From contig CAJWLK010000006.1 in assembly GCA_913043255.1 (NCBI GenBank), positions 62,001 through 126,000 on the forward strand: a stretch of DNA of 64,000 nucleotides, written 5' to 3'. How positions within the stretch are numbered: position 1 is the first letter of the stretch; each line of letters opens with the position of its first letter. The stretch comes from an uncultured Gemmatimonadota bacterium (lineage in GTDB: Bacteria; Gemmatimonadota; Gemmatimonadetes; Palauibacterales; Palauibacteraceae). The notes under the pieces were generated by a model that saw nothing but the letters and a program-made list of their open reading frames with translations, made no database searches and was not told the DNA's origin. Of the stretch, positions 10,663 to 24,221 are shown in pieces. The position numbers and the translations under genes were made by a program.

Positions 10663-12786
10663 ATGGCCTCTTTATCGTTCGAACGACGCGCCCATATCAC
10701 TTCTCTCTTGGCACTCGCGCTAATCTTGATCGCCCCCGGGATCTCCGGCCAAGAGAAAGCTTTGAGCTGGACACCCGACCTCAGTATGCAGTTTCATCAA
10801 GTTGGAAATACAGCGATCTCACCTGATGGTTCTCGCATTGCTTATGCGGTACGAAAGCCTCTCATGGAAGGACCCAAGTCGGAGTATCTAAGTCATATTT
10901 GGATGGTAGACTCGGAGGGAAGACGCGCGGCACAATGGACACGGGGGGGAGACTCTGCCGGTGATCCACAGTTTTCACCCGACGGGAATTGGCTCACCTT
11001 CACAACCTCCCGCTCTAGCGAGGGTTCCACCCCCATGAACCAGGTGTGGGTCCTCCCGCTCTCCGGCGGTGAAGGTCGTCAAATCACTTCCACTGAAGCC
11101 TCAGTTGGGACATATCGCTGGTCACCTGATGGTTCCCGTATCGCGTTCCTGATGCGCGACCCGGAGACCTCTGCAGAAAAAACCGCCAAAGAAGAAAAAC
11201 GAGACGTAATTCTAGTCGACCGAAACTACAAGTTTTCACACCTGTACGTGGTTGTGTTACCTGAAGCTCGAACGGAACCCGTGAGATCCCTCAGGTTGAC
11301 TGCAGGAGACTTCCACGTGACGGGGTTTAGTTGGGCTCCGGATGGAACTAAAATCGTGTTTTCACACCAACAAGATCCCCGAATTAACACTGCCCGACTA
11401 AGCGGTGATATCGCGACTGTGACGGTACCCACAGCATCTGAAATCACCGAGATGCTGGCTGATCACGAAGAAAGCCCACCCGAAACCGGCGATGAAATCC
11501 CTGAACCACTGGTTGTCGGTGAGGTGACCGACTTGGTTACAGGGCCTGGCATTGAAAGCCGCCCTGTCTGGTCGCATGACGGGCAATGGATCGCCTATGT
11601 GTCGACCGGGGACCAGCCTGAACCCATAGGACTTGGTGACCTCTATGTGATACCTGCGACTGGCGGTGAAAGTCGGGCGATCGACACCCCTAATAGAAGC
11701 GCATCTATCATCGGCTGGTCCGGCGATTCTCAAAACCTTCTCCTGATTGAATCTCTGGGAACTCGTCGGCACGTGATTTCCGTCCCCATCGATGGGAGCG
11801 AACTACACTACATTTCGTATGGCGACGGGATTGTCGGGTCCGTCTCATTAAGCACTGATAGTGAGCATATGGCGTTTACTTACCAGACCCCCGACGAACC
11901 ATGGGACGTATTTGTTTCACCCACGCGTACTTACAGCCCAAACCAAGTCACAAATATCCACAAAGATGTTCCTCGGCCTTTGATGGGTCGGACTGAACTC
12001 ACCTCGTGGACTTCGACCGAGGGGTTCGAAATTGAGGGGCTTCTTACCTACCCGGTCGATTACCAGGAGGGGCAGAGTGTACCCCTAATCCTAAATGTGC
12101 ACGGAGGGCCCGGAGGCGTGTTTAGCCAAGGATTCACAGGAGCACCTTCGATATACATGCTGCAGTATTTTGCGCAGAAAGGCTTCGCTATTCTTCGACC
12201 AAATCCTCGTGGGTCAACGGGTTATGGGAAAGATTTTCGATACGCAAATTTCCAGGACTGGGGTTTTGGTGACTTTCGGGACCTCATGGCCGGGGTCGAT
12301 CACGTCATAGCGATGGGAGTCGCTGACGCCGACCAACTTCTCCTGATGGGATGGAGTTATGGCGGCTATATGACCTCATGGGCCGTCACTCAAACAGATC
12401 GGTTCAAAGCGGCAAGTATGGGAGCTGGGCTTCCAAATCTCGTTTCAATGACAACCACCACGGACATTCAAGACTATCTGGTCGGTCACATGGGAGTTGA
12501 ATTTTGGGAAGACTATGAAAGATACGAGCGGCACTCTGCCATGTATCACATCGCTAAGGTCGTGACCCCGACGCAAGTAATTCACGGTGCAGAGGATTTG
12601 AGGGTCCCGTTCACGCAAGGGCAGGAGTTTTATCGAGCACTCGACCGACGAGATGTCCCGACGGAAATGATCGTGTATCCGCGAACGCCTCACGGTCCGC
12701 GAGAACCGAAATTTTTAATGGATGTTTCTGAGCGCATCCTAACATGGTTTATAAGTCACATGAGACCAATCGACACTACTATATGA
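10663..12786 (+). CDS. Exported S9 family acylaminoacyl-peptidase-like serine peptidase
   Basis: The 707-aa protein starts with ATG behind AAGG and carries a Sec signal peptide (hydrophobic LLALALILIAPGISGQ). A TolB/WD40-like propeller follows (several ISPDGSRIAY, FSPDGNW, WSPDGSRIAF repeats) and then an alpha/beta-hydrolase domain. Triad residues are S565 in GWSYGGY, D645 in GAEDLRVP and H677 in PHGPRE. The HGGPGG oxyanion segment lies about 110 residues before the serine. It would hydrolyse oligopeptides in the periplasm. It is divergent from the M1 aminopeptidase across a 161-base spacer that presumably holds both promoters. An acidic insert near 11455-11515 (EESPPETGDEIPEP) interrupts the propeller. 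Confidence 0.9.
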   Translation: MASLSFERRAHITSLLALALILIAPGISGQEKALSWTPDLSMQFHQVGNTAISPDGSRIAYAVRKPLMEGPKSEYLSHIWMVDSEGRRAAQWTRGGDSAGDPQFSPDGNWLTFTTSRSSEGSTPMNQVWVLPLSGGEGRQITSTEASVGTYRWSPDGSRIAFLMRDPETSAEKTAKEEKRDVILVDRNYKFSHLYVVVLPEARTEPVRSLRLTAGDFHVTGFSWAPDGTKIVFSHQQDPRINTARLSGDIATVTVPTASEITEMLADHEESPPETGDEIPEPLVVGEVTDLVTGPGIESRPVWSHDGQWIAYVSTGDQPEPIGLGDLYVIPATGGESRAIDTPNRSASIIGWSGDSQNLLLIESLGTRRHVISVPIDGSELHYISYGDGIVGSVSLSTDSEHMAFTYQTPDEPWDVFVSPTRTYSPNQVTNIHKDVPRPLMGRTELTSWTSTEGFEIEGLLTYPVDYQEGQSVPLILNVHGGPGGVFSQGFTGAPSIYMLQYFAQKGFAILRPNPRGSTGYGKDFRYANFQDWGFGDFRDLMAGVDHVIAMGVADADQLLLMGWSYGGYMTSWAVTQTDRFKAASMGAGLPNLVSMTTTTDIQDYLVGHMGVEFWEDYERYERHSAMYHIAKVVTPTQVIHGAEDLRVPFTQGQEFYRALDRRDVPTEMIVYPRTPHGPREPKFLMDVSERILTWFISHMRPIDTTI

Positions 12787-15257: not shown

Positions 15258-16093
15258 TCAGGAATGTCAACAAGCTCTTCTGCGGCACTCTGGTTTTATT
15301 TGTGTGCAGCACAGTCGACAATGGAACGGCCCAAGAACCACTAAGCTTTGAACGGTACCGAGAGGTGGTCGAGCCAATCTTCCTCGCACCACGTGGCGGT
15401 TATGGGCCTGGACGGGCTCCATGTGTTACCTGCCATGCAGAACAAGGCACCCCTCTTAGGCTCCAAGCACTTAACGAGAACCCTGATGGAACAGTGTTTT
15501 GGTCCGAAGAGCAATCGCGCCAAAACTTTCAGATCGTCTCAAGACTCGTGACCCCCGGCAACCCAGCACGAAGTAGGCTTCTCCGAAAGGCACTGGCCGT
15601 ATCTGCCGGAGGGGCTCCTTTCCATATAGGCGGCAAGTTTTTCGAGTCTCAAACTGACCCGGAATGGCGGACGATGGCTGAATGGGTTCAGGCAGCGGAC
15701 CCAGTCGATCCCAACCCCAATGATATCCCGCCGCGGTTAGATTTTCAGTTCTTTCAGGAGTGTGTACAAAGGATTTTCCTAGATAAGCGACCGGGTGACG
15801 TTGAGTGTGTTCACTGCCACGACAGTGGGTCGCGGAACTTCGCACGTAGGATACCCGAAGATCGAGACTTCTGGAATCAAGAGGAGTCTCGAGGGAACTT
15901 TGCAATTGCTAGACGATATATCGAACCCGGCCATCCAATGCTCAGCCGATTCCTTACCCACCCTCTTTCCTCTGAAGATGGTGGCGATGGTTTTCACGGC
16001 GGGCCTCGTCGCTGGGCTTCAAGGGATGATCCGGAGTGGCAGATGCTTGCCGCGTGGGTTCGAGGCGAAGAACCAGAGTGTCTTAGCTACTGA
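15254..16093 (+). CDS. Exported di-haem c-type protein with internal duplication
   Basis: The 279-aa protein has a signal peptide (hydrophobic GTLVLFVCSTV, ending near TAQEP) and two CxxCH sites: C57-C60-H61 and C185-C188-H189. The two halves are clearly a tandem duplication. Each has an aromatic-rich lead (EPIFLAP / QRIFLDK), the haem site, an FW-E-E-S/Q-x-x-NF-I element, an EPG or TPGNP segment ending in SRLL/SRFL, a G-rich F-H-I/G-G element, and DPEW-x-M/L-A-x-WV. Each half looks like a small mono-haem domain of planctomycete-type cytochrome style. It should transfer electrons in the periplasm. It overlaps the propeller gene by four bases. Its stop abuts the stop of the converging gene with no spacer. 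Confidence 0.8.
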   Translation: MIRNVNKLFCGTLVLFVCSTVDNGTAQEPLSFERYREVVEPIFLAPRGGYGPGRAPCVTCHAEQGTPLRLQALNENPDGTVFWSEEQSRQNFQIVSRLVTPGNPARSRLLRKALAVSAGGAPFHIGGKFFESQTDPEWRTMAEWVQAADPVDPNPNDIPPRLDFQFFQECVQRIFLDKRPGDVECVHCHDSGSRNFARRIPEDRDFWNQEESRGNFAIARRYIEPGHPMLSRFLTHPLSSEDGGDGFHGGPRRWASRDDPEWQMLAAWVRGEEPECLSY

Positions 16094-16852
16094 TTATCCG
16101 CGCAACGCAGTCCGGGAATCCATGCTCAACGGACACTTGTCAGTTATCGGCTGGTGACCCTCGGGCACAAAATATTGTTTCCATTCGAGGTTGTCCGGAC
16201 GCCCATAATGATTCAAGGCCGGGAAAATTGGCATTTGATCGTACGAGGAAAGCTTCTTACGAATCACGTGCCTTGCTGCACGGCCCTGAACTGTGTCTCC
16301 TGCAATAAGATCAAAACCTTCTCTTGCCTGGACCAACCAAGTGTACGCATGCAGCGAACGACGACTTCGCCGACGTTCGTGATACGGCGTCTTGAAATTG
16401 ATAAAAAACGGCACCCCACCAAAACAAAACGACCAATCTGGCAATTCAGGATCAGAGGGAATCCGGTCCGGCCAAGGGTCAGGATCCCGATGCATAACCT
16501 CTGCGACCAGACGCCAACTGTGATGATAATAATCTTCGATCGTCAGCCACTCCGGCGGTGGCAGGAGGAGAATCGCGAGCGGACGCATCGAGGCCTCGAC
16601 TAGAGGCAACGGTCGAATAAACTCTGCGAATTCGGTAAGCACCTCCACTAACCGATCCGTTACCACACGTGGATCAGTTGATTCGATGAAAGCCAAAAAG
16701 ATCTGTTTTTTCTTGGCCGCGAGTGTACCGAATGTACATGGAAATGACTCATCTCCCACTTTACTCAACAGCTCCCTATAAGCCTGCACAGGCCAACCTT
16801 TCAGTTGACCCCTTTCAACCTGAACATCGACTTCGGACTGCGGTTTAATCAC
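16094..16852 (-). CDS. YqcI/YcgG (DUF1817) family protein, GntA-like haem N-hydroxylase candidate
   Basis: The 252-aa protein matches the YqcI/YcgG family. Visible features are the FPCTFG motif near residue 38, the central LPPPEWL and YYHHSWRLVAEV segments, DPDPWPDRIPSDPELPDWSF near 122-141, and NFKTPYHERRRSRRS near 151-165. The family includes GntA, a haem-dependent N-hydroxylase acting on a guanidino group in guanitoxin biosynthesis; arginine N-hydroxylases such as DcsA are, to my knowledge, relatives. Candidate haem ligands are the conserved histidines in YHH and PYHERR, but I cannot assign one. The GTG start overlaps the stop of the upstream ureohydrolase (GTGA), so the two are translationally coupled. 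Guanidine N-hydroxylation is inferred from family and neighbour. Confidence 0.78.
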   Translation of the reverse strand: MIKPQSEVDVQVERGQLKGWPVQAYRELLSKVGDESFPCTFGTLAAKKKQIFLAFIESTDPRVVTDRLVEVLTEFAEFIRPLPLVEASMRPLAILLLPPPEWLTIEDYYHHSWRLVAEVMHRDPDPWPDRIPSDPELPDWSFCFGGVPFFINFKTPYHERRRSRRSLHAYTWLVQAREGFDLIAGDTVQGRAARHVIRKKLSSYDQMPIFPALNHYGRPDNLEWKQYFVPEGHQPITDKCPLSMDSRTALRG

Positions 16853-17796
16853 GAAGACGCTGCGGCCGCCAGAAGACAGAGCAGTTCGTAAGTGATCGTC
16901 GCCCCAACAAGTGCCGTATTCCCTGTCGGATCAAACGGAGGGGCCACCTCAACCATGTCTGCACCGACCAACTGAAGTCCTTTGAGGCTCCGAATGAGTG
17001 TGAGAGCCTCGCGCGAAGTGAACCCGCCCACCTCGGGAGTACCTGTACCAGGCGCGAAAGCCGGATCCAGACTATCGATATCGAAAGAGATGTAGGTTGG
17101 ATGACTCCCTACTAGACTTCTGGCCTCCTCTGCTACCGATTCAATACCCAAACTGATGACCTCATCCATATAGACGACACGTAAGCCATTCGATTCCGAG
17201 TACGCCCAACCTTCACTGGAAGTCTGTGCGCCCCGAATGCCGATCTGAATCGTCCGCAACGGATCAATCAGCCCCTCCTCTATAGCTCGACGAAAGGGGG
17301 TTCCATGGTTGTAGCGAGAACCCATCCATTCGTCCCACGTATCTGTGTGTGCATCGATATGGATCAATGCGATTGGCTCCTTTGCCTCAATGGTACGCAA
17401 GATTGGAAGCGTGATAGAGTGGTCACCACCAATCGCGAGCGGAACCACTCCGGCGTCGGCGAGGCAACCGAAAAACTGACCAATGTCCCCGTGCGCAGCC
17501 TCAGGTTCGTAAACACGTGTGAACGGAACGTCGCCAGCATCACCAATCCGGCATGCGTCAAATGGATTCACGCGAGTCGTTGGGTGGATTGTGCGCATCA
17601 TGCTTGACGCATTCCGGACTTCGCGTGGACCATGTCGCGCCCCTGGCCGGTTAGTGACTGCGCCATCATAGGGGACTCCAACCATGGCAATGTCGAAATC
17701 TTTCGGATCTTCGATAATGGGCGCACGCATGAACGTGGGGATGTTCATATAACGCGGCGCGAGCATTGCTTGATTCGCTGTGCGGGACTCTGTCAC
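16849..17796 (-). CDS. Ureohydrolase of the agmatinase / guanidinobutyrase type
   Basis: The 315-aa cytoplasmic enzyme has all six manganese ligands of the ureohydrolase fold: H126 in GGDHSI, D148, H150 and D152 in IDAHTDT, D239 and D241 in SFDIDSLDP. Length and the segment RYNHGTPFRRA fit the agmatinase, guanidinobutyrase and guanidinopropionase group better than arginase. It should hydrolyse a guanidino compound to urea (or a urea derivative) and an amine; the exact substrate is not readable. The start is GTG with AAGGATAGG upstream. It is the first gene of a two-gene unit with the YqcI/YcgG protein (four-base overlap). That pairing makes an N-hydroxyguanidino substrate possible. The gene is divergent from the dimethylformamidase-like gene. 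Confidence 0.88.
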   Translation of the reverse strand: MTESRTANQAMLAPRYMNIPTFMRAPIIEDPKDFDIAMVGVPYDGAVTNRPGARHGPREVRNASSMMRTIHPTTRVNPFDACRIGDAGDVPFTRVYEPEAAHGDIGQFFGCLADAGVVPLAIGGDHSITLPILRTIEAKEPIALIHIDAHTDTWDEWMGSRYNHGTPFRRAIEEGLIDPLRTIQIGIRGAQTSSEGWAYSESNGLRVVYMDEVISLGIESVAEEARSLVGSHPTYISFDIDSLDPAFAPGTGTPEVGGFTSREALTLIRSLKGLQLVGADMVEVAPPFDPTGNTALVGATITYELLCLLAAAASS

Positions 17797-17971
17797 ACCA
17801 ACCTATCCTTGTTCATGGACAATCGAGCTTCCTGTTGAAGTATATTTCCGCGGTCTGGTTTCGGGCGAACCACCTACCCATCAGGATTCGAGTCTTGCGG
17901 GGCTCGCCTCGGGTTCTGGATACTGAGTCAATGTGGACCAACCTTCCTTCGTCCAACAGGATGTTTTTCAG

Positions 17972-20077
17972 ATGACTACAAAGCCTACTATCTCCGCCAT
18001 TGTGCTGACACCACTCTTTTTTGCCTGTGCCACCACAGTATCAGAAGCAAACGACTGCTTGGCACCAGCCAATGAAATTGTCGCGGAAAACTGCCTACCT
18101 GGGGCACCATCGACGGAATGGGACATCAATGGGTATGGTGACCCAAGCATCCAAGGCTTTGGTCATGAGATCGGTATCGCTCAAGGAGAGACCATCCATT
18201 TTAAGATTGATACTGATTCCGATGATTATCGAATCGACATCTACCGTATGGGTTACTATGGAGGCATGGGGGCTCGGCGAATTGACACAATTGAGCCCTC
18301 TGCGACACTCCCACAGGTTCAGCCCGATTGTTTGAACGCCCCCATTCCCGTGTTGAACGAGGCCGGTGCTGTGGTAACCGCGGAGGCCCCCCTCTTCGAC
18401 TGTGGTAACTGGGCCGTTTCAGCATCTTGGGATACGCCGACTGACGCGACTTCAGGCATCTATTTTGCACGACTGGTTCGCGAGGACCCATTAGAGGGTG
18501 AATGGTGGCCCAATGATGCTTTTGCACCACAAGACCTTCCCTTGGGTGCAGAAGGTGACCCACTCTGGGACCGGTTAAGAGGAAGCTCGGAAAACGCCCT
18601 GGTAGAACCTCGCGCTAGCCATATCTACTTCATCGTCCGAGACGATGAGGGGGCATCTGAAATGCTATTTCAGACTTCGGACATAACATGGCAGGCATAC
18701 AACCGGTTCGGCGGACACAGCGTGTACGGCCAGTACAATCCGGTGCGAGACCGGTTACACGGTGGTGAGCCGCGCGCCTACAAGGTCAGCTACAACCGAC
18801 CGTTTGAGACACGCCACTATCGGGCCGTAAATGCAGTATTCAACTCAGAATACCCCATGGTACGATGGCTCGAACGAAATGGGTACGATGTAAGTTATAT
18901 AACTGGTGTGGATGTAGAACGTCTTGGTGACGAACTCCTCGAGCATAAAGTTTTCATGGCTGTCGGACACGATGAGTATTGGACGGGAAAACAACGCCGA
19001 AATGTTGAAGCAGCACGAGATGCCGGCATCCACCTAGCATTCTTTAGCTCAAATGCGGTCTTCTGGAAAGTGCGATGGGAAGAAAGCATTGACGGATCAG
19101 GCCAACCGTACCGGACCCTCGTCACCTATAAGGAACCGGACGGCGCAACGAAGATGGACCCGGAGCCTGGCATCTGGACGGGAACATTCCGTGATCATCG
19201 ATCCATGAATCCAGAGGGCCCGTGGCCAGAAAATGCGCTAATCGGCACACTCTTCACCGTAAACGCCTGGCGGAATGATCCGTTAATCGCCGACGAACAA
19301 TTCTCAAAACTCCGTTTTTGGCGAAATACCGAGGTAGCCAATCTTGGCCCTGGGGAACGCTTTGTTTCTATCAAGGGCATTCTTGGCCATGAATGGGATT
19401 CGGACATAGACAACAACTTCCGTCCGCCAGGACTGTTTCAAGTCTCATCTACGACTGTGACAAACACTAACTGGTGCGGTTATCCGGCTATGGACGCGTG
19501 CCAAGCGGCAACGGCGACCCACAACGCTGTCTTGTACCGCCATGAGAGTGGAGCACTAGTATTTGGATCTGGCACGCTGCAATGGGCGTGGGGGTTAGAT
19601 GCTAATCACGATACAGAAACAGGAGTTCCTCCAGAACGACAAAACGGGTTTTCCACTCGAGTCGGTGAGGATCCCAACGGTCCAGACCGAAACATTCAAC
19701 AGGCAACGTTGAACCTGTTCGCCGACATGGGGGTTCAGCCCACCACTATACAGTCTGATCTAATTCCGGCTACGGCGTCGACGGACGCGACTACGCCAAG
19801 ATCTTCGATTGAATTTCCGTCAGAAGGTTCCCCTGTAAACGGAAGCATCACGATTCGCGGAAGCGCATCGGATAGCGGCGGCGGCATCGTTGCTGGCGTC
19901 GAGATATCGACCGATGGCGGCGCCACTTGGCATCCCGCTCATGGTCGAGAAAAATGGAGCTTTGAATGGTCACCTGTTCCAGACGGTAAATCCAGCACCC
20001 TACTAAGCCGTGCAGTGGATGACACCGGAAACCTGGAAACCCCAAGCCTTGGGGTCACAGTCACCCTAAACAGCTAA
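17972..20077 (+). CDS. Exported N,N-dimethylformamidase large-subunit-like protein with Ig-like C-terminus
   Basis: About 701 aa from ATG 17972, which places the Sec signal (IVLTPLFFACATTVSEA) at the N-terminus; a GTG at 17933 would add 13 residues. The central region resembles the C-terminal domain of the dimethylformamidase beta (large) subunit. The expected mononuclear-iron ligands seem present: Y243 in WQAYNRFGG, H333 and E335 in VGHDEYW. The last 100 residues (TIRGSASDSGGG, STDGGATW) form an Ig-like sandwich as in molybdopterin oxidoreductase dimerisation or bacterial Ig domains. Dimethylformamidase hydrolyses DMF to dimethylamine and formate and needs a small alpha subunit; none is encoded next to it. 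The substrate of this exported form is therefore unknown. The next gene starts six bases after its stop. Confidence 0.75.
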   Translation: MTTKPTISAIVLTPLFFACATTVSEANDCLAPANEIVAENCLPGAPSTEWDINGYGDPSIQGFGHEIGIAQGETIHFKIDTDSDDYRIDIYRMGYYGGMGARRIDTIEPSATLPQVQPDCLNAPIPVLNEAGAVVTAEAPLFDCGNWAVSASWDTPTDATSGIYFARLVREDPLEGEWWPNDAFAPQDLPLGAEGDPLWDRLRGSSENALVEPRASHIYFIVRDDEGASEMLFQTSDITWQAYNRFGGHSVYGQYNPVRDRLHGGEPRAYKVSYNRPFETRHYRAVNAVFNSEYPMVRWLERNGYDVSYITGVDVERLGDELLEHKVFMAVGHDEYWTGKQRRNVEAARDAGIHLAFFSSNAVFWKVRWEESIDGSGQPYRTLVTYKEPDGATKMDPEPGIWTGTFRDHRSMNPEGPWPENALIGTLFTVNAWRNDPLIADEQFSKLRFWRNTEVANLGPGERFVSIKGILGHEWDSDIDNNFRPPGLFQVSSTTVTNTNWCGYPAMDACQAATATHNAVLYRHESGALVFGSGTLQWAWGLDANHDTETGVPPERQNGFSTRVGEDPNGPDRNIQQATLNLFADMGVQPTTIQSDLIPATASTDATTPRSSIEFPSEGSPVNGSITIRGSASDSGGGIVAGVEISTDGGATWHPAHGREKWSFEWSPVPDGKSSTLLSRAVDDTGNLETPSLGVTVTLNS

Positions 20078-21005: not shown

Positions 21006-24000
21006 ATGAACTACCGGAAACTAACCATGAGACTCGTTACTAAATTCGCTATAGTGTCCTTGGCTACCAGCCTTAGCACAATCTCCACACTCGCCGCGCA
21101 ACAAACGTCGGATAACAGCATAGTTCTTAACCCCACCTTTATGGAGTCTTACCAATGGCGCAACATTGGGCCAGATCGCGGGGGGCGTTCAATTGCGATA
21201 ACAGGGGTCCGTGGACGACCTGATGAAGGCTACTTCGGTGCTACCGGAGGAGGGCTTTGGAAAACAACCGATGGAGGGCAGAACTGGTCCTCGATCACCG
21301 ATTTCAAAATCACAGCCGCATCTGTTGGTGCGGTAGCGGTAAGTGAAACGAATCCTGACCTCGTGTTCATCGGTACGGGTGAAACGTGCATCAGAGGCAA
21401 CATCATGCCCGGTGATGGCGTTTACCGAAGCCGTGACGCAGGGGAAACGTGGCAGCATTTAGGATTCAGCGATTCGCATGGGATTTCCAAAATTCGTATC
21501 CACCCGACTGATCCCAGCGTAGTTTTTGTCGCCTCTTTTGGTCAATACGGAGGACCAAGCTCAGAACGCGGAGTCTTCAAGAGCAGCGATGGTGGAGACA
21601 CTTGGCGTCGAGTTCTCTACCGGAACGACCTGACTGGTGCGATTGATATCTCCATCGACCGAAACAACCCAGATGTCATCTACGCTTCGCTCTGGGAGGC
21701 CTATCGTAAAGAATACCAGATGTCGAGCGGAGGGCCCGGGAGCGGTCTATTCAAAAGTGTCGATGGAGGTGAGACATGGGATGAGATCACCCGAAATTCG
21801 GGGCTGCCCACCGACGGACTTGTTGGCCGAATAGGCGTATCCGTTTCCCGCGCCAACTCGGGCCGCGTCTACGCTTTAATCGAAAATGACAATGGCGGAT
21901 TATTCTCAAGTGATGACGCGGGCAATACGTGGACCTTGGTTAACTCAGAGCGTTCGATTCGACAGCGAGCGTTCTACTACTCACATGTTTTCGCTGATCC
22001 ACACAATCAAGATGTCGTATACCTACAGAACACCCGGCTTTTCCGCTCGGAAGATGGGGGCAAAACCACTGAGGTCATCGACAACGGAACTCACGGAGAC
22101 TTTCACGACTTTTGGATTGATCCTGATGAACCTACCCACCTCCTTGTAGCTAATGATGGTGGAGGTGCGGTGTCCAAAAACACAGGCGGCAGCTGGACGG
22201 ATCAGGAGTTCTCCACCGGACAGTTTTACCACGTCATTACGACAAACCACATTCCCTTCCATGTGTGTGGATCACAACAGGACTACGGTGTTACGCTATG
22301 CACACCTTCTGACTGGAATTACGCAGAATTCGCGGATGCAGGAAACGACGACGTTGAGCAACACCGAGATATCACCGCTGGATCAACCGCATTATCCTAT
22401 GGCGCTGGCGGTGGAGAGCCTGGATACATAGCTCCAGACCCCCTGGACCCAGACATCTTTTATTCAGGCACCAACAACGGCCGTTACGTCGACAAATACA
22501 ACCGACGAACCGGGACTTCACGCGAAGTAAATCCATATCCATGGTTCTATTCCGGAGAACCATCTCAGGATATCCGGGAGCGGTGGCAGTGGACGTTTCC
22601 CATCATTTTCTCTCCCGTAGACCCGACACACCTATACGTTTCTTCGCAGCGACTATGGAGGACAACAGATGGTGGGGCTAACTGGACCGCACTCAGTGGT
22701 GATCTGACTCGAGCTGACCCGATCACGCAAGGGCGTTCCGGCGGTCCAATTACAGGTGATATGAATGGGCCGGAGGTCTACGGAACGATCTTTTCTGTGG
22801 GGCCAAGCAAAATCGACATTAACGTCATCTGGGTCGGTTCTGATGACGGGCTTGTTCATGTAACGAAAAATGGTGGGGCCACATGGACAAACATCACGCC
22901 AGCAGCCATGCCAGACTTCGGGCGGGTGAGCCAAATCGATGCTTCCTCATTTGATTCAGGTGCCGCGTACATCTCGGTCCGACGTCCTCTTCTCAACGAC
23001 CTGGCGCCGTATATTTTCAAAACCAACGACTTTGGCGAGACCTGGACAAAGATCGTTACTGGTATCCGCAAGGACGCCTACGTCCACACTATTCGAGAAG
23101 ATCCGACCCGACCGGGACTACTGTACGCTGGGACGCAGCATGGCGTCTATGTTTCTTTTGATGACGGTGCTCAGTGGCGGGGACTGAATAACGGCCTCCC
23201 GGACGTACCTATTTCTGATCTTATTGTCGAAGACAATGAATTAGTCATCGCTACGCATGGACGTTCTTTCTGGATACTCGATAACATTACACCCCTGAGA
23301 CAGTTGACCCCTGACCTTTCCGAGGTGGCTGTAAGATTGTTCGCCCCACCACCCGGCATCCGATCCGGACGTGGGGTCACCTTGAGTTGGTTCTTCAAGG
23401 AAAAGCCGACGTTCGCACGTGTGGAAATCGTCGATGCTCATGGCGAAGTGGTGCGTACCTTTGCAGCCGATACGACCACGACGGATTCGACAGCCACCCC
23501 AGGGCCAGAGGCGCGCTACCAGAGAGGTCCTACGGTGCCACTCAAAGCAGGGATACACCAGCTCACGTGGGATCTTCGGGGGGATGGATTCAAGGTGTTT
23601 CCAGGGATGATCTTATGGGGAGTCCGGAACGTTGCGCCGGCGTTACCTCCGGGAAACTACACCGCCCGCCTAACCGCCGATGACCAAATTGAAACAGCAC
23701 CCATTAGAATCGATCGCAACCCCTGGATCACAGACGTAACTGACGATGATCTCCAGGCACAATATGAGTTCTCAAGCACAATTTTGGCTAAGGTGAATGA
23801 GGCCAATGAAGCAGTAATCACTATCCGCAGGGTGAAGGCAGAACTTGAGGCGCGCTTGCAGGAATCGGACGATGCACAACTTCTTTCCGCTGCGGCGAGG
23901 TTAGAGGATAACGCCTCCATAGTGGAGGCAGACATCTACCAGGTACGAAACCGTAGCGGACAGGACCCACTTAATTTCCCGATCAAGGTCAACAACCGAC

Positions 24001-24221
24001 TCGCCAACCTGATGTCCATGGCCGAACAAGGGGATGGACGCCCAGGAAATCAGATGTCCGAGATACTTGAGATCCTAGTTGCGGAGTTAGGCACCTACAC
24101 AGACCAGCTCCAAGAAGTCTGGGCAACAGATCTGGCAGCGGTGAATCATGAGCTAAACCGACTTGGTCTTGAACTGATAGACTTATTATGCGCACCTGAT
24201 GAAATCTGTCCCGTTGTATGA
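21006..24221 (+). CDS. Exported sortilin/VPS10-like Asp-box (BNR) propeller protein
   Basis: The 1071-aa protein has a signal peptide (hydrophobic FAIVSLATSLSTISTLAAQQ). A second ATG at 21027 begins just before it and may be the true start. About ten Asp-box motifs of the S-x-D-x-G-x-T-W type are visible: TTDGGQNW, SRDAGETW, SSDGGDTW, SVDGGETW, SDDAGNTW, TTDGGANW, TKNGGATW, TNDFGETW, SFDDGAQW. They mark one large or two tandem beta-propellers as in sortilin and BNR glycosidase-like proteins. A conserved block near residues 420-480 (VCGSQQDYG) lacks them. The C-terminal 250 residues hold an Ig-like part and a helical, charged tail that may form a coiled coil (near 930-990). No catalytic residue set can be assigned. 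Such proteins are abundant in Gemmatimonadota and Acidobacteriota; their function is unknown. Confidence 0.85.
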   Translation: MNYRKLTMRLVTKFAIVSLATSLSTISTLAAQQTSDNSIVLNPTFMESYQWRNIGPDRGGRSIAITGVRGRPDEGYFGATGGGLWKTTDGGQNWSSITDFKITAASVGAVAVSETNPDLVFIGTGETCIRGNIMPGDGVYRSRDAGETWQHLGFSDSHGISKIRIHPTDPSVVFVASFGQYGGPSSERGVFKSSDGGDTWRRVLYRNDLTGAIDISIDRNNPDVIYASLWEAYRKEYQMSSGGPGSGLFKSVDGGETWDEITRNSGLPTDGLVGRIGVSVSRANSGRVYALIENDNGGLFSSDDAGNTWTLVNSERSIRQRAFYYSHVFADPHNQDVVYLQNTRLFRSEDGGKTTEVIDNGTHGDFHDFWIDPDEPTHLLVANDGGGAVSKNTGGSWTDQEFSTGQFYHVITTNHIPFHVCGSQQDYGVTLCTPSDWNYAEFADAGNDDVEQHRDITAGSTALSYGAGGGEPGYIAPDPLDPDIFYSGTNNGRYVDKYNRRTGTSREVNPYPWFYSGEPSQDIRERWQWTFPIIFSPVDPTHLYVSSQRLWRTTDGGANWTALSGDLTRADPITQGRSGGPITGDMNGPEVYGTIFSVGPSKIDINVIWVGSDDGLVHVTKNGGATWTNITPAAMPDFGRVSQIDASSFDSGAAYISVRRPLLNDLAPYIFKTNDFGETWTKIVTGIRKDAYVHTIREDPTRPGLLYAGTQHGVYVSFDDGAQWRGLNNGLPDVPISDLIVEDNELVIATHGRSFWILDNITPLRQLTPDLSEVAVRLFAPPPGIRSGRGVTLSWFFKEKPTFARVEIVDAHGEVVRTFAADTTTTDSTATPGPEARYQRGPTVPLKAGIHQLTWDLRGDGFKVFPGMILWGVRNVAPALPPGNYTARLTADDQIETAPIRIDRNPWITDVTDDDLQAQYEFSSTILAKVNEANEAVITIRRVKAELEARLQESDDAQLLSAAARLEDNASIVEADIYQVRNRSGQDPLNFPIKVNNRLANLMSMAEQGDGRPGNQMSEILEILVAELGTYTDQLQEVWATDLAAVNHELNRLGLELIDLLCAPDEICPVV

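Follow-up and report, generated by a model that had tools for sequence, protein, structure and literature searches.

A ureohydrolase gene overlapping a candidate guanidine N-hydroxylase gene of the YqcI/YcgG family in an uncultured Gemmatimonadota bacterium

The window analysed here, 64,000 nucleotides from contig CAJWLK010000006.1 (positions 62,001-126,000, forward strand) of an uncultured Gemmatimonadota bacterium, carries on its minus strand a ureohydrolase gene whose stop codon overlaps the start of a gene for a YqcI/YcgG family protein, a candidate haem-thiolate guanidine N-hydroxylase that we call the hydroxylase. All coordinates below are window positions. Our best reading of the pair is that of a locally assembled two-gene module, with a logic like that of DcsA and DcsB in D-cycloserine biosynthesis but with a different ureohydrolase. 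As to its function we lean, at somewhat less than even confidence, toward a two-gene operon for guanidino chemistry in which the hydroxylase and then the ureohydrolase act on one substrate. YqcI/YcgG genes are widespread; where a member is co-translated with a ureohydrolase, guanidino compounds become its likely substrate class, and the pair makes a two-protein system that is directly testable. Should the pair make hydroxyurea, a ribonucleotide reductase inhibitor (PMC4658187), it would represent a further bacterial route to that compound, through a ureohydrolase other than that of the D-cycloserine producers.

In the proposed route, the hydroxylase would bind haem via its residue C39, receive electrons from some donor, and add a hydroxyl group to one guanidine nitrogen of its substrate, either an amino acid or a small guanidino acid, after which the co-translated, Mn-dependent ureohydrolase would cleave the hydroxylated guanidine. 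Hydroxylation at a terminal nitrogen would lead to hydroxyurea plus an amine, and hydroxylation at an internal nitrogen to urea plus an N-hydroxyamine. The evidence described below establishes the two families, the hydroxylase fold, the catalytic residues, and the gene overlap; haem binding, hydroxylase activity, the substrate, the order of steps, the products, and the joint action of both enzymes on one substrate are what we infer from it.

An earlier note on this DNA, made from sequence alone, had reported both genes and their GTGA overlap, and our coordinates (Table 1) agree with it. It had also called the genes "fused in translation", which does not hold: they occupy different, overlapping frames and encode separate polypeptides. 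The earliest ATG, GTG, or TTG in the hydroxylase frame is the GTG at 16852. Counting this pair, five of the 30 junctions between co-directional open reading frames (ORFs) in the window have a four-base overlap, and the overlap therefore indicates ordinary operonic coupling. Because the pair is bounded by a convergent gene ending at 16093 and a divergent gene starting at 17933, the two genes form a unit of their own. Base composition is 0.511 for the hydroxylase and 0.555 for the ureohydrolase, compared with a mean of 0.529 (standard deviation 0.015, range 0.494-0.558) over 41 ORFs. The pair is thus not strongly foreign in composition, and its presence in the genome is probably not very recent.

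The hydroxylase is a true member of Pfam family PF08892, as the earlier note had proposed, with a match of 2.8e-53 and 181.3 bits (curated cut-off 27) covering profile positions 4-210 of 211. It has the fold of AglA/AlpD, the N-hydroxylase of the argolaphos pathway (PDB 9ub3, 9ub5, 9uba, 9ubb, 9ubs); the top structural match of its model is an AglA variant with arginine bound. The two proteins are only about 27% identical, but they have in common the haem-ligating Cys and most pocket residues. Residues C39, R164, R194, and R198 align with AglA C44, R166, K196, and R200, the haem ligand and the Arg/Lys residues at the haem carboxylates. The haem contacts are conserved, with one Lys changed to Arg, and the guanidine-pocket residues are mostly conserved. 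The protein is predicted to bind haem via C39 and to N-hydroxylate a guanidine. A narrower label in the earlier note, "GntA-type", after the N-hydroxylase of guanitoxin biosynthesis, had to be dropped: GntA belongs to the same superfamily, but the score against its NCBIfam model NF041366 is 26.5 bits (5.3e-06), below the cut-off of 145.

The residues that replace AglA K196 and K225 are R194 and E223. In AglA, these lysines bind the phosphonate, and the K196R, K225E, and double mutants can use free arginine, whose internal nitrogen they hydroxylate while E225 anchors the amino group (PMC12866846). The R194/E223 combination is not special to the window's hydroxylase, since Glu stands at the K225 position in 69 of 74 relatives and Arg and Glu occur together in 26 of 76 alignment rows, counts to be read with the fact that 13 of the 74 belong to a short subgroup for which two alignments disagree at the loop bearing the K225 position, those of its members placed in one of the alignments showing a gap there. 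The residue pattern at these two positions is an argument for a free amino compound as the substrate of many AglA-like members, the window's hydroxylase among them. Changing AglA T220 to Arg gives terminal hydroxylation (PMC12866846), and the window's hydroxylase has Arg at that position, a feature common to two of the 74 relatives. The model has low confidence in the loop L2 region, however, and the regiochemistry is therefore not readable from this residue.

The ureohydrolase matches PF00491 at 5.1e-92. It passes the NCBIfam agmatinase models NF002564 (305.2 against a cut-off of 302) and TIGR01230 (206 against 174.3), models that are broad in name; the human "agmatinase" is in fact a guanidino-acid hydrolase (PMC9772407). 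It fails the arginase model TIGR01229, with 90.6 bits against 227.6. The closest solved structures are those of 3-guanidinopropionase GpuA of Pseudomonas aeruginosa (3nip, 5.1e-112, 55% identity), guanidinobutyrase GbuA (3nio, 4.1e-83, 46% identity), and proclavaminate amidinohydrolase (1gq6, 4.8e-74). By these comparisons the protein is of the guanidino-acid hydrolase type, nearest to 3-guanidinopropionase, and not an arginase. The earlier note was right to set it in a subgroup other than arginase; it had placed the protein close to guanidinobutyrase/agmatinase, but among solved structures 3-guanidinopropionase is nearer than guanidinobutyrase. All six manganese ligands that the note counted can be assigned: H126, D148, H150, and D152 from alignment columns, and D239 and D241 from the adjoining columns I240 and S242 together with the FDIDSLD motif.

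Along with the manganese ligands, the ureohydrolase has in common with GpuA and GbuA a capping Arg, here R68. The equivalent GbuA residue, R72, caps an adjoining active site and could contact the acid group of the substrate; the human homologue, in its Arg form, cleaves guanidino acids and neither arginine nor agmatine (PMC9772407). The ureohydrolase differs from GpuA and GbuA in having a partner hydroxylase and in residue 157, where GpuA has Y157 and GbuA has M161, positions named as substrate-recognising in PMC10833137. Trp in place of the Tyr157 of GpuA occurs in the window's protein only; the other 33 rows (counting rows with a residue there, some genomes giving two fragment rows) have Phe in 19, Ile in eight, Tyr in five, and Met in one. 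All 12 full-length relatives from the phylum with 64-73% identity (L099-L110) have Phe.

DcsA and DcsB, like the pair here, combine a YqcI/YcgG protein with a partner from the arginase superfamily. Together they are described as converting arginine to hydroxyurea (PMC10214352), and DcsA binds haem, although its in vitro activity is given as unconfirmed (PMC10849742). The partner in the window is of the guanidino-acid type and not an arginase, unlike DcsB, a hydroxyarginase. The window contains 48 ORFs of at least 150 amino acids, and seven neighbours of the pair were scanned against Pfam; these seven show no resemblance to the genes for D-cycloserine biosynthesis, and no phosphonate gene was recognised among them, in contrast to the setting of AglA. 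The ureohydrolase is also related to proclavaminate amidinohydrolase, a ureohydrolase recruited to biosynthesis, that of clavulanic acid, which is not known to have a YqcI/YcgG partner. In the literature searched, which was largely without subscription papers, we found no description of YqcI/YcgG and guanidino-acid hydrolase genes as a pair.

The genome of the window has one PF08892 match and two matches to the ureohydrolase. PF08892 is absent from the 16 other genomes of the genus that were searched and from the wider set of 34 that takes in the family as well; in these 34 the best ureohydrolase match has 37% identity. Across 395 genomes of the phylum, PF08892 occurs in 17 and close ureohydrolases (E<=1e-50) in 27, the window's genome being included in each count; by hand comparison of the two lists, it is the only one with both. 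Three of the 17 have hydroxylase orthologues at 46-50%, which group with the window's protein (support 1.0) in a tree that includes AglA as its sole characterised enzyme of the family. No gene of the arginase family lies in the regions examined around the orthologues in genomes G084, G145, and G387. The nearest ureohydrolases of the phylum form one group with the window's and three Burkholderiales sequences (support 0.998), with low support inside it.

Conserved pairing was the expectation of the earlier note, which named its absence beforehand as refuting, and that absence is what the neighbourhood survey returned: an arginase-family neighbour stands beside none of the 96 other YqcI/YcgG genes examined. 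The arginase-family profile search covered 77 loci (74 distinct hydroxylase genes) and 23 loci from the Marinomonas phylum (22 additional genes), and it detected the window's ureohydrolase in two control loci. Flanks of about 1.5 kb were surveyed for loci from the genome search and 4-8 kb for most others, with less than 1 kb on one side in six. A tree, in which AglA was the sole characterised YqcI/YcgG enzyme included, divides the 96 into 61 AglA-like genes, the window's group, and a short subgroup (support 1.0) of 35. The telling figure is therefore zero of 61, two of these genes encoding identical proteins; the Marinomonas-phylum sample is weak evidence, all 22 of its additional genes lying in the short subgroup apart from the window's protein. 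Actinomycetota contributed one locus to the survey and plasmids 20 of 48 hydroxylase records, and the known DcsA/DcsB pair lies outside the sample. A second pair was sought among relatives and in the phylum, named genomes, plasmids, and the Marinomonas phylum, and was not found; the viral contigs searched yielded no relatives. The convergent neighbour is retained in ten of 15 other genomes of the genus, with differing flanks, and no clean empty site for the pair was seen across these 15.

Several of these results weigh against the proposed route. Within the sample the pair occurs once, in a single genome, none of the other surveyed genes repeats it, and co-occurrence in the phylum is not enriched (one observed, about 1.2 expected by chance from 17 x 27 / 395). 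The two pockets do not obviously accept one substrate: E223 of the hydroxylase fits a free amino group, whereas R68 of the ureohydrolase fits a guanidino acid, and the human homologue with Arg was inactive on arginine (PMC9772407). The distinction of W157 is based on a single sequence. AglA required a PDR/VanB reductase (PMC12866846), and no NAD_binding_1 reductase (PF00175) was matched in the genome, which is 93.9% complete. The main rival, which we regard as possible if not probable, draws on the same observations. It holds that two unrelated accessory genes came under one promoter by recent accident, the ureohydrolase releasing urea and an amino acid from a guanidino acid taken up by the cell, while the hydroxylase acts on another substrate such as arginine. 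In its favour, the relatives of the two genes stand apart in the phylum and the surveyed loci, the 34 genomes of genus and family have neither PF08892 nor a ureohydrolase match above 37% identity, and the pocket residues suggest different substrates. Yet both families act on guanidino groups, a four-base overlap between the single PF08892 match and one of two ureohydrolase matches of the genome would by rough estimate be unlikely to arise by chance, and the base composition suggests that the pair has been retained for some time.

It is unlikely, though conceivable, that the hydroxylase makes an exported or toxic N-hydroxyguanidino metabolite and the ureohydrolase serves as branch point or protection, clearing excess precursor or destroying product in the cell; plasmid relatives of the hydroxylase adjoin LysE-type exporters or lie near amino acid permeases, as would suit a product or substrate that is transported, but the seven scanned neighbours include no recognisable gene for an exporter or for another step of biosynthesis. 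Still less likely is that the YqcI/YcgG protein is a divergent haem or scaffold protein rather than an N-hydroxylase. Only six bacterial members have been characterised, all from natural-product pathways (PMC12866846), and the poorly modelled loop and the missing reductase family point the same way, but the conserved haem contacts, the mostly conserved guanidine pocket, and the arginine-bound AglA variant as top structural match weigh against it. Our preferred reading of sequential action on one substrate has a more specific form that we think rather improbable, a minimal two-enzyme pathway outside recognised antibiotic clusters, in which a guanidino acid would be N-hydroxylated, the W157 ureohydrolase would be adapted to the hydroxylated substrate, and hydroxyurea or an N-hydroxy-amino acid would be released free. 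The observation in the earlier note is thus confirmed and its interpretation partly supported: the pair is a single-genome finding with a putative joint function, a variant of a known logic and not an established pathway, and the case for it is weaker than the note had made it.

Table 1. Positions of the two genes, their overlap, and selected codons in the window
Feature	Position	Strand	Details and basis
Ureohydrolase (arginase family, guanidino-acid hydrolase type)	16849..17796	-	315 amino acids, GTG start
YqcI/YcgG family haem-thiolate guanidine N-hydroxylase candidate	16094..16852	-	252 amino acids, GTG start
GTGA overlap, hydroxylase start over ureohydrolase stop	16849..16852	-	sequence; likely translational coupling
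C39 codon, aligned with AglA Cys44, the thiolate ligand of haem	16736..16738	-	alignment; function PMC12866846
R194 codon, equivalent of AglA K196	16271..16273	-	alignment; PMC12866846
E223 codon, equivalent of AglA K225	16184..16186	-	alignment; PMC12866846
R68 codon, equivalent of GbuA R72	17593..17595	-	alignment; PMC9772407
W157 codon, substrate-recognition position (GpuA Y157, GbuA M161)	17326..17328	-	alignment; role PMC10833137

Of the five nearest neighbours of the pair, all on the opposite strand, one encodes a protein that matches no Pfam family; the products of the others are a thiolase, a beta-propeller protein, a dimethylformamidase-like protein, and a class IV aminotransferase. 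The dimethylformamidase-like gene (17933-20077) has a second genomic copy at 73%, and adjacent double copies occur in several members of the genus. Surroundings of ureohydrolase relatives were compared in 17 regions from the phylum and two from Burkholderiales, by means of a coarse ORF filter, which in L137, L138, L139, and L144 failed to pick up even the ureohydrolase. They vary across the phylum; common neighbours occur mostly among close relatives, the most widely distributed in five loci. Three loci, the window's included, encode a large protein of the kind found at 21006-24221. No substrate is readable from the neighbours in these regions. In Paraburkholderia and Caballeronia (L144 1140-7927, L146 333-6930), a ureohydrolase relative at 58-60% comes after genes that encode an amino acid ABC transporter, an M20 metallo-hydrolase, a urea-carboxylase-associated protein, and a cupin, a locus that resembles a route for taking up and degrading some guanidino or ureido compound; the window has no such context.

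PF08892 itself shows a two-way split between the AglA-like group and the short subgroup, which lacks the LEWKQY-type loop (L003-L006, L008-L015, L017, and 22 of L198-L220; 35 of the 96). YqcI/YcgG genes on plasmids adjoin LysE-type exporters in Thioclava FTW29, Priestia, Pantoea, and Parageobacillus, with the exporter farther off in Rhodoferax, and lie near amino acid permeases, in some cases together with a cupin, in Leisingera, Rhodobacteraceae SC52, Thioclava GXIMD2076, Mesorhizobium, and Rhodoferax. The window's hydroxylase clade has a sister group (support 0.964) to which the LysE-linked sequences from Pantoea and Thioclava and the permease-linked one from Mesorhizobium belong. Four haloarchaeal plasmids (L153-L156) have a YqcI/YcgG gene near those for a sulfotransferase and adenylyl-sulfate kinase, and in two others (L150, L157) it adjoins the gene for a urea-carboxylase-associated protein. 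In Tistrella mobilis (L148, from about 5881 to the end at 12636), the YqcI/YcgG ORF is open to the end of the stretch examined, with an MbtH-family nonribosomal peptide synthetase (NRPS) gene upstream, and the domain is possibly fused to a long enzyme. On a Priestia megaterium plasmid (L152 5010-10711), the YqcI/YcgG and LysE genes are followed by an opposite-strand MFS transporter gene and genes for ornithine carbamoyltransferase, an ATP-grasp protein, and a thiamine pyrophosphate (TPP) enzyme, a possible cluster for an arginine-derived natural product.
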